Source: Minisyncoccota bacterium
GTDB lineage: Bacteria; Patescibacteriota; Minisyncoccia; Moranbacterales; UBA2206
DNA: 45,333 nt
Reading direction: 5' to 3'
Assembly (NCBI GenBank): GCA_031291955.1
Contig: JARLIA010000010.1
Location: forward strand, 1 to 45,333
In this document: positions 721 through 17,786 of the stretch, piece by piece
Numbering within the stretch: the first letter of the stretch is position 1
Layout of the letters: every line of letters starts with the position of its first letter
The notes under the pieces: model-generated
Databases searched by the model: none
The model's input: only the letters and a program-made list of their open reading frames with translations
Told to the model about the DNA's origin: nothing
Translations under genes and position numbers: made by a program

Positions 721-1510
721 AAGAAGGCTCATAAAAATTATTTTGGTCATTTTCCTGCTGGGACTTCCTGGGTATACACACGCCTCGGCTTTTGTTGTTT
801 ATCTTTATTTCAATCCAACTAACCAAACGCTCTCTTTCGACAAACAAGCCAGTATTCCGGTGGCCCTGGATAAAAGCATCAGCCCAGATTATGTTTCTTT
901 TTCTGAAAATAATTCAAAAGGAAGTTATATCCTAAAACTTTACGACACAAACAATCAGGAAATTATAAGCACGGAATTTAGCCAGCAAAACGGAGCCTTC
1001 TCATTGCAAATACCATATTTTAGTTTGGCTAATTCTATAAAAATATTCAGCCAATCTTCCGGAAAGGAAATTTTGAGCGCCGATCTATCAAAATTCAATA
1101 CCTGCAACGGCAATGGGATTTGCGAATTCGAAAGAGGAGAAAATGTAACCACCTGTCTGGGAGATTGCGGGACTAGCCATGTCACCTATAGCAACCAGAC
1201 AAAACAACTGCTATCAGAGCATGACGGAGCCCTAAAAGACCCGGACACCGGCCAAATCCTGCTACAAGACAAAGCCTTTGTTAAAACTAATAATTCCGGC
1301 CAATCGCAAAATGCTTCCGCAATAACCGGAACACAAACAACTCCTTCTGCCAATCAAAGCAACAATCAAACAAGCCCGACTGCCAGCAACTCGAATTCGG
1401 CCGTTCCGGTGATTATTCTTGTCATCGCCGTTATCCTTGTTATTGTCGGCATTATCCTTTACAAAAAATATTTTAAAAAAAATAATGACAACGAACATGA
1501 ATCAAAATAA
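698..1510 (+). CDS. Secreted single-pass membrane protein of unknown function
   Basis: Likely start MAAAHKIKRRLIKIILVIFLLGLPGYTHA (signal peptide); C-terminal TM SAVPVIILVIAVILVIVGIILYKKYFKKN; overlaps neighbouring ORFs as in an operon. Confidence 0.6.
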   Translation: MAAAHKIKRRLIKIILVIFLLGLPGYTHASAFVVYLYFNPTNQTLSFDKQASIPVALDKSISPDYVSFSENNSKGSYILKLYDTNNQEIISTEFSQQNGAFSLQIPYFSLANSIKIFSQSSGKEILSADLSKFNTCNGNGICEFERGENVTTCLGDCGTSHVTYSNQTKQLLSEHDGALKDPDTGQILLQDKAFVKTNNSGQSQNASAITGTQTTPSANQSNNQTSPTASNSNSAVPVIILVIAVILVIVGIILYKKYFKKNNDNEHESK

Positions 1511-14052: not shown

Positions 14053-14814
14053 TCAAGCCGACCAATAATCATCCGCATTTTCCTTGCTAGAAGTTGTGCC
14101 GCGCCAAGCCAACTCAAAAAGAAAGCGCATATTTTTGGCAATCTCATTACTTTCTACAATCAGCCCTAAGGATTCCTGAAAACTCATAAAAGTCAATTTG
14201 TTGCCGTAAATATTCATCTCAATGGAAAAAGGAAATTCTTCCTTACTGACTAGTCGCGTCTCTTTTAGATCTTTTTGATCTGATTTTTTATACTCTTTTA
14301 TTTCTTCCGTATCCGGTCCGATCGCCCGGACGGTGATTTTAGCTTTGACCCTTTTGTTTTTATATTCGTCGGCAAAGTCCGCTCCCAGTTTGGCGATTAT
14401 ATTTTCTGTCACGAAGGCGACTAATTCACCCTCGTATTTCAAGGTGTCGCGGTAAACTTCTTTGATGCCTTCCGGTCCTTCAAAGTAGCGGATGACCGGT
14501 TTGGTGCCGGCGGTGTTGAGGAGTGATTTCAGCGCCGGCATCAACTCCTTCAGTTTTTCTTTCTTTTCGTCTAATACTTTTTCCAGATTGGATGGATCAG
14601 CCGCTAAAAATAATCTCTTCTTACCTTTTCGGGTTTGGGAAACCAAGTTCTTTTTCTCCAGTTCGAGCAACACATCATAGACAGTTGTTCTTAAAATGCC
14701 GGTCTTTTTGGCGAGAGTTATCACCGGGCTGGCTCCCAACTCTAAAAGCGCCAGGTAAATGCCAGCTTGTTTCTCATTGAGGCCGAACTGGGTCAATTGT
14801 TGGGATATATCCAT
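14053..14814 (-). CDS. TrmB-family transcriptional regulator
   Basis: MDISQQLTQFGLNEKQAGIYLALLELGASPVITLAKKTGILRTTVYDVLLELEKKNLVSQ wHTH; start chosen at 14814 by homology pattern. Confidence 0.8.
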   Translation of the reverse strand: MDISQQLTQFGLNEKQAGIYLALLELGASPVITLAKKTGILRTTVYDVLLELEKKNLVSQTRKGKKRLFLAADPSNLEKVLDEKKEKLKELMPALKSLLNTAGTKPVIRYFEGPEGIKEVYRDTLKYEGELVAFVTENIIAKLGADFADEYKNKRVKAKITVRAIGPDTEEIKEYKKSDQKDLKETRLVSKEEFPFSIEMNIYGNKLTFMSFQESLGLIVESNEIAKNMRFLFELAWRGTTSSKENADDYWSA

Positions 14815-14844
14815 AAAATGTCGAAATAATAAGTCAACATTTAC

Positions 14845-14873
14845 AGTATAGCAAATAAGCCATATTTTGTCAA
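14845..14873 (-). promoter_or_regulatory. Promoter for the TrmB-like gene
   Basis: Minus strand TTGACA-17 nt-TATACT. Confidence 0.75.
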
Positions 14874-14931
14874 TATAAAGCAAAAAAGGGCTTATAGGCG
14901 TGAGATATTTTTCGACGAAAGTCCAAACAAA

Positions 14932-14960
14932 TTGACATTTAGTGGGTTAGGTGCTATAAT
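14932..14960 (+). promoter_or_regulatory. Consensus sigma70 promoter driving the hairpin-dense unit
   Basis: TTGACA (14932-14937), 17-nt spacer, TATAAT (14955-14960). Confidence 0.85.
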
Positions 14961-14965
14961 AACCC

Positions 14966-15345
14966 GTTACGATGAGACAACGAGAAGAGAGAGCAAGCGT
15001 AACCAACGCACCTTACATATAAATAGTGTCCCTACCGCCCAAAGGCGGAAAAGACCTATAAATGGCACTAGAAACAGAAAGCATACGAAAATCCTTTGTA
15101 GAGAAGAGAACCCGCCTTCGCCAAGGCTACGGCGGGCAAAGAAAGATAGCCAAAGGATCTGACACAATTCTGTTTCTCCTCCGGACGAGCCATCGCCGGA
15201 GTAGAAAGTGGTCCTTGTTCCGAAGTAATTCGGAACAGGAGCAGGCTTTCTAAAAGTCTAGGGAAGAGAGGCAAATATGTCAGTGAGCCATCAGCATTGA
15301 TTGGTGTAAAAACTCTCTCTTCTCTTCAATCAATATCGCTCACTG
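14966..15345 (+). ncRNA. Candidate structured RNA / structured 5' leader with kissing-loop complementarity
   Basis: Hand-paired helices: 14966-14971/14998-15003; 15029-15034/15259-15264; 15035-15039/15044-15048; 15070-15079/15168-15177; 15091-15098/15151-15158; 15111-15116/15131-15136; 15179-15184/15196-15201; 15203-15208/15246-15251; 15217-15224/15229-15236 with GTAA loop; 15281-15288/15338-15345; 15296-15303/15327-15334; loop-loop 14982-14993/15313-15324. Confidence 0.6.
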
Positions 15346-15500
15346 GCATTTTTGTGGACAGTTCCTTAAGAAAAAATAGCGATTGGCATTTTGAAAATAT
15401 GAAACAATGTTTTTGAAATGCCGATCGTTATCACAAGATCGGAACCCGGCGACACAGCCAACGCCGGGGGAAGCCAAAGAAGAAAGGAGGTGAAACTTCT

Positions 15501-15665
15501 ATGGCACAGACCATTAATCTTGGTCTTGATAACCCCGAACTGTATCGGGGTTGCGAGATCGAGAAGGTGGCCGGGAGAGCCAACCTCACCACTTCGGTGG
15601 TTTCGGCGATTGAAATCGTCGGCGAGAATATCGCCGCGATGGCAATATCGACCCGGAAGAGGTGA
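15501..15665 (+). CDS. Short SD-led ORF, possible N-terminal half of a Csx3-like protein
   Basis: aaaggaggtgaaacttctATG; MAQTINLGLDNPELYRGCEIEKVAGRANLTTSVVSAIEIVGENIAAMAISTRKR*. Confidence 0.5.
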   Translation: MAQTINLGLDNPELYRGCEIEKVAGRANLTTSVVSAIEIVGENIAAMAISTRKR

Positions 15666-15790
15666 CACTCACCGGTCCGATGGCCGTGTGGAGCTACCTC
15701 GTGGTGTTCCATGCCGTCGTGCATAAGACACGCAAAGTGTTTTATGACGATGGGCGTGAAAACCGCGTGCTGGTGGCCGCCCACGGCTAA
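15614..15790 (+). pseudogene. Csx3/Crn3-like C-terminal segment in the -1 frame relative to 15501-15665 (frameshifted, recoded, or translated by reinitiation)
   Basis: Open frame NRRREYRRDGNIDPEEVTLTGPMAVWSYLVVFHAVVHKTRKVFYDDGRENRVLVAAHG*; W-x6-H, YDDGR and VLVAAH resemble Csx3 W..H / YDPRL / VVV.SH positions. Confidence 0.5.
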
Positions 15791-15946
15791 AGGGATTGCC
15801 AAGCAATCCTGCATGCCGACTCTTTTGCTGTGAAGAGTCGGTGAGTTCAACCACTAAATTGGGGTCAACACCACACGACCCCTTCTTTTCTCAAACCTTA
15901 ATTTATTTAAGGTTTGAGATGAAGAAGTTTGTTCTTTGAAAAATTA

Positions 15947-16094: not shown

Positions 16095-16382
16095 ATGAGG
16101 CATCGAAGAAGAAGGTTACGTCGAGCGAGGGCTCAGCGAGAGTTCTTTTCCGCCACGGCATGGGCCGCGGCGGATGTTGAACTGAGCAGCTGTCCGGACG
16201 AATGTCCGGACAGCTGCGCCACCTGCCAAACAGGGCAGGTGGCAAATTGGTATAAATGTGCGGCTGACGGCGCTACGGAAGTAGCAAGCATTAGCCGCAG
16301 GTACTTTTCCGAATGGAGAAAAGCTCTCCATTCGGAAGGCTGGGGACGCGAGGTCGAGCGGCATATCCGCTCGCGTCGCTAA
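16095..16382 (+). CDS. Small Arg/Cys-rich protein of unknown function, encoded largely by hairpins
   Basis: SD gaggaggtg 5 nt before ATG; MRHRRRRLRRARAQREFFSATAWAAADVELSSCPDECPDSCATCQTGQVANWYKCAADG...HIRSRR*. Confidence 0.45.
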   Translation: MRHRRRRLRRARAQREFFSATAWAAADVELSSCPDECPDSCATCQTGQVANWYKCAADGATEVASISRRYFSEWRKALHSEGWGREVERHIRSRR

Positions 16383-16517: not shown

Positions 16518-17786
16518 ATGCGCGAATGGCCAATAACAAAAAGAATCAATAAAGAACCGGAAGAAAATAAAGATGAAGAAAGGGAAGTGGATAACGTGAT
16601 CAAATACCAGTTGCTTATGAATACTTTCTATGAAAGATACAGACTGAATAATGGGAATGATGAGCAGTGCGCCAAGGATAAAGAGATGATTGAAATTATG
16701 GAATTTTTTCAGAAAAGTTTGGATGATTTTATGGATAGGGGGTTAAGAGAAAAAAACTTTTTTTACAACAATCGGCAAGAATTCGATAACGTGCTTCAAA
16801 AAGCGTTACTTTTGTTTTCAAGACACAATAATTTACTCAAGGATCAAAAATTAAAAGACCAGTCAATCAATACTTTTTCAAAAACGCTGGATTTATTTGA
16901 GGAAAACTCTTTTGAATCCAAGCAGATAATAGTTCTCGCGGCCAATTTAGCGGGCGCGGAGAAGCTTCGAGACAAAATTGATAGTCTTATTGTAAAAAAT
17001 AGAGATTTAGGAAATGAAGAAAGGGTAAATCATTTGGAATATATTCGTTCATTCATCACGCCCAATGACGACAAAGTTGCGATTTTAAATTTGCAAAAAT
17101 TTTATCAGGAAAATATCAAGTTTGAAGAATACAAAGTCAACGAAAAAATGAACGCGAGGGATGTGGAGCTTTTGGAATCCTTGATTGGCAAAAACCAAAA
17201 AGTTTTGGAAATGGGTTGTGGGACGGGACGATTGATAACGGAATTGGCCAAAGACGGATATGACGCGGCTGGTTATGATTTCACGGAACGGCATGTGAAA
17301 ATTACAAAAGAAGAAATAGAAAAATCAGGGAATGTTGCCAAAGTATTCCAGGGCGACTGGCACAGGAACGCGCTGGCGGACGAAAATTTGGACGCGGTTT
17401 ATTCTTTGGGCCGGAATATTCTTCACGACTATTCCATCGTTGATCAGGCGCAACTTTTTCGGGAAGCCAACCGGATTTTGAAGCCGGGCGGGCGGTTTAT
17501 TTTTGATATTCCCGATCGCGAGGCGGGTGGATATCAAAAAATGGTCGGGGAATACGCCGAAGAAATGAAACGGCGGGGCATCCGGAATTTCCGCTACGGC
17601 ACGATTTATGACAGTCCGGACGGGGAAAATTTCGCCACCCGCTACGCTTATTCGCCGGACGACATTGAAGAGCTGGCCAGATTGGCCGGATTCAAAATTG
17701 TCAAAGTTGAAAAACGCGAACTGGAAACTAGTGAAGGCGACGAGAATTTATATTATGTTTTGGAAAAAAATAAAGTTGATTTATGA
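16518..17786 (+). CDS. SAM-dependent methyltransferase with long helical N-terminal region
   Basis: KVLEMGCGTGRLITELAKDGYDAAGYDFTERHVKITKEEI...DAVYSLGRNILHD...RILKPGGRFIFDIPD. Confidence 0.85.
   Translation: MREWPITKRINKEPEENKDEEREVDNVIKYQLLMNTFYERYRLNNGNDEQCAKDKEMIEIMEFFQKSLDDFMDRGLREKNFFYNNRQEFDNVLQKALLLFSRHNNLLKDQKLKDQSINTFSKTLDLFEENSFESKQIIVLAANLAGAEKLRDKIDSLIVKNRDLGNEERVNHLEYIRSFITPNDDKVAILNLQKFYQENIKFEEYKVNEKMNARDVELLESLIGKNQKVLEMGCGTGRLITELAKDGYDAAGYDFTERHVKITKEEIEKSGNVAKVFQGDWHRNALADENLDAVYSLGRNILHDYSIVDQAQLFREANRILKPGGRFIFDIPDREAGGYQKMVGEYAEEMKRRGIRNFRYGTIYDSPDGENFATRYAYSPDDIEELARLAGFKIVKVEKRELETSEGDENLYYVLEKNKVDL

Follow-up and report, generated by a model that had tools for sequence, protein, structure and literature searches.

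Results

The Locus and Its Gene Neighborhood

The window analyzed here, 45,333 nt of a 1.01-Mb genome that is spread over 15 contigs, carries on its forward strand a previously undescribed folded RNA of about 390 nt, which occurs in a few ultrasmall uncultured bacteria. As bounded here, this RNA is 391 nt long (14966–15356) and is preceded by a sigma-70 promoter (14932–14960, forward strand) that matches the consensus at 12/12 positions (TTGACA-N17-TATAAT, with a TG before the −10 box) and by a divergent gene for a TrmB-family regulator (14053–14883, reverse strand; PF01978, 2.4e-13). Downstream on the forward strand lie a first small ORF split by a frameshift (15501–15790), a boxA-like element in the downstream leader region (GTTCTTTGAAAA, 15931–15942, to be compared with GAACTTTGACAAGTGAATA in the genome's own 16S leader), a second small ORF of 95 aa with no known family (16095–16382), and a long ORF of 422 aa with the C-terminal domain of a class I SAM methyltransferase (16518–17786; PF13649, 1.6e-16). 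An intact, 98-aa relative of the first small ORF (L007, 1422–1718, minus strand) has no match in Pfam or NCBIfam, so that a resemblance to Csx3 is not claimed here. The 16S rRNA gene of this genome has, near its 3′ end, an insert whose ORF resembles a LAGLIDADG endonuclease gene (L148, ~780–1200, minus strand).

Within the order (Ca. Moranbacteria), 8 of 131 genomes carry the RNA, in ten copies of about 390–530 nt, the first of which were retrieved by blastn against relatives; G054 and G030 have two each. Where the records of carrier genomes give a taxon, it is Ca. Moranbacteria or Moraniibacteriota. A covariance model built on the P6–P7 region (model R1, distinct from the motif R1 described below) recovered nine copies in seven of the 131 genomes and, beyond the order, returned only already-known copies in even samples of 384 genomes of the class and 380 of the phylum, these large samples being scored with stricter filters. 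A pattern describing the terminal hairpin found the same nine copies and a tenth, in G032, that is cut by a contig end; its additional matches in G058, which appears to lie inside a protein-coding stretch, and in G079, where one repeated sequence is involved and the spacing differs, were not taken as copies. Most other matches of the P7 pattern among genome contigs came from unrelated phyla and were presumed to be chance hits. No similar phage record and no viral contig with the P7 pattern turned up that would point to a phage or viral origin, and in the open-access literature we found no description of a structured noncoding RNA specific to this bacterial group.

The copy on G030:C12 was read across both contig ends, which share a 115-nt identical overlap, and it carries an insert (254–511 of L095, that is, of G030:C12:1-6685) that is a GIY-YIG element or a short form of one. 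Since the first and last 115 bases of this locus are identical and lie inside the RNA, the unit, in which TrmB, ORF6N, the RNA, ORFs, and a methyltransferase follow one another, is either circular or tandemly duplicated. The G032 contig also breaks inside the RNA.

The neighborhood of the RNA is largely fixed. A TrmB-type gene lies upstream, directly or past one gene, in 9/9 copies with sequence there, and in 9/9 copies a promoter with 10–12 of 12 matches and a 17-nt spacer ends exactly 5 nt upstream of the first base of the RNA. The unit then runs from the RNA through, usually, a boxA to small ORFs and to a long ORF that is either of the methyltransferase type or GNAT-like. A candidate rRNA-type boxA (14–19 of 19 matches) follows P8, the terminal hairpin of the RNA, in 8/10 copies; within 260 nt after P8 none was found in the window, whose boxA-like site lies at 15931, or in G054b, and the boxA that follows P1 is weak. 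In a comparison of the long ORFs that leaves aside G022, whose contig ends, the methyltransferase type was found in 3 of the 131 genomes, all with this RNA, and in these 131 genomes its relatives occur only beside this RNA; the GNAT-like type was found in seven genomes, five of them with this RNA. The small ORFs after the RNA (L055, L090–L095) differ between copies, have no known families, and are preceded by hairpin-rich leaders.

TrmB-headed units also exist without the RNA; they share a similar GTTAMGAT start, followed in some by a boxA-like GTTCCTTAAAA. In G055, which belongs to the same genus as G025, such a unit consists of TrmB, an ORF6N-like gene, a promoter, small ORFs, and a long protein, and the promoter, which resembles that of the RNA-bearing units, runs straight into the small ORFs. 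As the 350 nt that follow P8 contain no promoter above 9/12 in any of the copies, and as the RNA-less unit of G055 has a like promoter, the RNA can be regarded as a leader module. In G054a and G030, opposite-strand genes lie directly 3′ of the RNA, which favors an RNA that ends on its own. An opposite-strand pair directly after the RNA (L091, 5185–5809; L094, 1945–2569) is nucleotidyltransferase-like and HEPN-like, labels given by sequence appearance alone, and GIY-YIG endonuclease elements or short forms, with ends TCCAGCACTAACTTTGGACT...AGTCCAAAGTTAGTGCTGGA, were observed directly after the RNA at other loci (L008, ~1700–1816; L019, ~1200–1510).

A Multi-helix Fold Kept across Homologues

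The comparison of copies supports well that this RNA is structured, its function being a matter of inference. None of 100 shuffles folds as well as the 391-nt sequence (z = −5.65), and in the region covered by model R1, 21 of the 26 pairs vary on both sides, with a covariation score of 0.691 against 0.292 after shuffling. The nested stems drawn in the sequence-only reading, made from this DNA before our analysis, are thus supported: the 5′-terminal hairpin and all other stems that it named are present where it had placed them, and almost every helix is kept in the homologues, namely P1, P3, P4, P5, P6, P7, P7b, P8, and P8b, most of them backed by two-sided changes as expected for a structured noncoding RNA.

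All helices lie on the forward strand. In counts of paired cells made on arms chosen manually in the light of the proposed structure, which biases the percentages in its favor, P1 (14966–15003; GTTACG at 14966–14971 with CGTAAC at 14998–15003) has 41/42 cells paired over seven copies, including a C-G to A-U change; P4 (15071–15176; GAAACAGAA at 15071–15079 with TTCTGTTTC at 15168–15176) has 73/81 over nine copies, with two-sided changes; P5 (15091–15158; ATCCTTTG at 15091–15098 with CAAAGGAT at 15151–15158) has 71/72, in spite of a sequence that differs in nearly every copy; and the outer 12-bp stem of P8 (15277–15349; ATGTCAGTGAGC at 15277–15288 with GCTCACTGGCAT at 15338–15349) has 106/106 over nine copies. 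The percentages for P7 and P7b were obtained separately: in this domain (15202–15252; TAGAAAG/CTTTCTA and CTTGTTCCGAA/TTCGGAACAGG), 100% of the cells of P7 and 96.6% of those of P7b are paired, 11/11 pairs of P7b vary on both sides, and the internal loop of P7, AAGTGGT...CAGGCTT, is invariant in eight aligned copies. The five inner pairs of P3, a CCGCC/GGCGG hairpin (15035–15048), are kept in 7/7 copies compared, and the comparison of copies also yields P6, a CTCCGG/CCGGAG hairpin with an inner GCCA loop (15179–15201). Within P8, an inner stem joins ATTGATTG (15296–15303) to CAATCAAT (15327–15334).

Some details of the initial drawing did not hold. The TCCCTA/TAGGGA stem that was thought to close a multibranch domain has no counterpart that we could find in relatives and overlaps the third purine motif described below, and the GTAA loop, read as being of the GNRA type, is replaced by UUCG, UGAA, or a longer loop in most relatives. 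The CCCGCC/GGCGGG palindrome inside P5 (15111–15136) is probably a mobile insert, because its close relatives are scattered over many genomes of the order; it is unaligned in the other copies of the RNA, although in G054a the RNA has a similar one close to its 5′ end.

At its 3′ end, P8 is followed by a run of U (TTTTT, 15349–15353) that is kept in other copies and then by GTGGA, common to most of them. The association of a stable, G+C-rich hairpin with UUUUU, as found in the window, is that of an intrinsic terminator or attenuator, and on this basis the U-run is the probable site of intrinsic termination or the 3′ end of the RNA. P8 folded alone reaches −22.9 to −61.9 kcal/mol in eight copies; it is missing from the list of a simple terminator scan, which does not accept a loop of this length.

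An Rfam 15 search of the window and its relatives returned nothing at the gathering score, with chance-level matches at lenient E-values. The covariance models of OLE, ROOL, and GOLLD were not matched, and no tRNA or tmRNA was found.

One Pyrimidine Loop and Several Purine Motifs

The loop of P1 contains a purine motif, R1 (GAGAAGAGAGAG, 14982–14993, forward strand), and the tip of P8 a pyrimidine loop, Y (CTCTCTCTTCTC, 15313–15324, forward strand), which are exact 12-nt reverse complements, as had been noticed from the sequence of the window. Two further purine motifs, missing from that reading, lie on the same strand: R2 (AGAGAAGAGA, 15100–15109), with 10 bp of complementarity to Y, and R3 (AGGGAAGAGAGG, 15260–15271), 5 nt before P8, with 12 bp including two G-U pairs. 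Each RNA has a single Y (core CTCTCTTCT) in the tip of P8 versus two to four R motifs (core AGAAGAGAG), with R1 at the 5′ hairpin, inside or next to it, R2 midway along the RNA in some copies, and R3 before P8, only a few nucleotides upstream of it in 6/9 copies (spacers of 5–8 nt). Across the genome, the purine motif is not enriched (nine sites vs. nine for a reversed control).

Complementarity between R1 and Y is kept over 11–14 bp, G-U allowed, in 9/9 copies readable on both sides. Homologues with non-complementary loops, which the sequence-only reading had named as evidence that would count against it, were looked for and not found among these copies, all of which retain 11 bp or more. Over the 12 pairs of the helix, 96.9% of cells are paired, versus 52–77% in slid registers. 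Complementarity is moreover kept with covariation, in that the 9-bp core never varies and the three edge pairs vary on both sides: G-C, A-U, or G-U precedes the core, A-U or U-A follows it, and one position further out 5/8 distinct rows have G-C, U-A, or A-U. As the nine core pairs are invariant, the covariation score, 0.211 against 0.092 for shuffled data and reached in 0/500 shuffles, rests on three edge pairs and a few lineages. In dinucleotide shuffles, a complement of at least 12 nt at a distance of at least 150 nt arose in 1/300 cases, and in local 20-nt block shuffles in 0/300.

With regard to the choice of partner, the own R1 of each RNA fits its own Y better than swapped Ys do, a score reached by 98/5040 permutations with seven representatives and by 8/5000 with all nine copies, figures inflated by kinship, G024, G030, and G030b being close kin. 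R3 also beats swapped Ys (16/5040 permutations) and is complementary to Y in every copy, over 9–13 bp; it shows the same covariation tendency, weaker and more broken than that of R1. Because the purine motif recurs two to four times and Y occurs once, the partner of Y is not unique: what had been read as a single pair is kept, yet one to three other purine motifs could pair with the same loop. R1 is, on comparative grounds, the best-supported of these partners and R3 a possible one.

The description as kissing hairpin loops would suit part of the copies. R1 lies in a hairpin loop in 7/9 copies, whereas in both copies of G054 it falls just outside the predicted 5′ hairpin. With P8 folded on its own, most of Y stays unpaired at the tip, and R1:Y taken as an isolated duplex has −15.9 to −21.9 kcal/mol in eight copies; the long R1:Y pairing of G024 and G030 partly overlaps bases of the inner P8 stem. 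In a nested fold of the whole RNA of the window, the state with R1:Y and an opened P8 lies 1.3 kcal/mol below the one that keeps P8 and leaves both loops free. A nested, pseudoknot-free fold thus reaches R1:Y only by opening the terminal hairpin, and kissing therefore needs a pseudoknot; one that combines R1:Y with P8 is plausible.

Discussion

We favor, with a probability of roughly 0.55, the reading that this RNA is an order-restricted leader noncoding RNA, self-contained and closed end to end by pairing between the R1 and Y loops. It would open a transcription unit that is probably under the control of the divergent TrmB-type regulator. R1 in the 5′-terminal hairpin and Y at the tip of P8 would then form a helix of about 12 bp tying both ends around the multi-helix core, P8 and its U-run would end most transcripts and so release the RNA, and some polymerases would read through into the small-ORF operon, usually with an rRNA-type boxA. 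We infer that Y, at rest, pairs with R1 and not with R2 or R3, that this pairing is intramolecular, that P8 terminates transcription, and that the folded RNA, beyond the operon alone, matters to the cell. What counts against such a clamp is that R2 and R3 are also complementary to Y, R3 in every copy, that R3 too beats swapped Ys, that the covariation of R1:Y comes from three edge pairs and a few lineages, that the G054 copies do not clearly place R1 in a hairpin loop, and that R1:Y partly overlaps the inner P8 stem in G024 and G030.

The presence of several R motifs for one Y may also be understood as competition, in which case the RNA would be an attenuator switch, a cis-acting sensor for the downstream genes: R3 would compete with R1 or R2 for Y; R3 on Y would strain P8 and allow read-through, and a folded core presenting R1 would let P8 close and stop transcription. 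This possibility, which we hold to be doubtful but the foremost among the alternatives, agrees with the two to four R motifs per copy against one Y, with the position of R3 a few nucleotides before P8 in 6/9 copies, with a P8 followed by a U-run and downstream ORFs lacking a promoter of their own better than 9/12, with the mere 1.3 kcal/mol between the nested states of the window (R1:Y or P8), and with the RNA-less unit, where the operon lies directly behind the same kind of promoter. However, the first downstream gene does not always belong to the operon, being on the opposite strand in G054a and G030 or replaced by GIY-YIG elements in others, the pairing of R3 is weaker and more broken than that of R1, and the core is larger than an attenuator needs, with no candidate ligand pocket identified. 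The surplus of R motifs over Y in every copy would also suit a multimer, in which Y would bind the R2 or R3 (or R1) of a different molecule and give rise to dimers or larger assemblies. In six copies, the spacers of 5–8 nt suggest that R3 is too near the base of P8 to reach its own tip Y unless bent or melted, and kissing loops are known to join ROOL and GOLLD molecules (PMC12286853). We nonetheless consider multimers unlikely, for R1 and Y of the same molecule fit best and can both be open, and there is no symmetric self-complementary loop. A mixed form seems a little less likely still, namely a multivalent self-assembling RNA whose Y either closes on its own R1 or links to the R2 or R3 of a neighbor, so that closed monomers and chains would interconvert; its operon encodes, in addition, a methyltransferase or acetyltransferase-like protein that is almost confined to the vicinity of the RNA.

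Two further explanations do without a functional pairing. The purine motifs may be protein binding sites, the complement in the P8 loop being a regulatory decoy or incidental, and the 9-nt core AGAAGAGAG, invariant in R1 and matched without variation in Y, and near-invariant in R3, does exceed what pairing needs; we deem this quite improbable, given that the flanks of R1 change together with those of Y and that every copy has one Y in the same register. As for chance complementarity between two low-complexity tracts, purine and pyrimidine runs do pair by chance more often than mixed sequence, but the shuffles (1/300 and 0/300), the persistence in 9/9 copies, and the lack of enrichment of the motif elsewhere in the genome make it scarcely credible.

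Comparison with Known RNA Systems

The RNA described here is compact and combines good covariation, a defined start, a putative end-to-end loop clamp, and a fixed gene neighborhood. Like OLE, ROOL, and GOLLD, which form dimers or larger assemblies through kissing loops and other contacts, it is a multi-helix noncoding RNA with covarying stems and predicted long-range loop contacts (PMC12286853). It differs from them by the absence of an Rfam 15 match, by a length of 390–530 nt, and by another architecture; how far it deserves the adjective "ornate," as had been proposed, is thus a matter of degree for an RNA of 390–526 nt that is, by Rfam, unrelated to these three families. With the leaders of rRNA operons, which have boxB–boxA and a leader–trailer helix, it shares a hairpin at the transcript start, a candidate rRNA-type boxA in the unit, and predicted pairing between the 5′ and 3′ ends (PMC10250234), but here the end pairing would be a loop–loop helix rather than a leader–trailer stem, no rRNA is present, and in most copies boxA lies 3′ of the RNA, with no more than a weak match behind P1. 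The position between a promoter and a small-ORF operon and the terminator-like hairpin at the end recall transcription attenuators and riboswitch leaders, from which it departs in that no known aptamer is found (Rfam), the alternative pairing spares the outer terminator stem, and opposite-strand genes sometimes follow. Finally, ColE1 RNA I and RNA II form a kissing-loop complex in which complementary hairpin loops pair over 6–7 bp. The RNA studied here would have complementary hairpin loops as well; it differs by its ~12 bp, its long 5′ and short 3′ linkers, and its several candidate partners per loop, and this arrangement of one Y for several R motifs turns into a testable question how an RNA chooses among repeated partners for a single loop.
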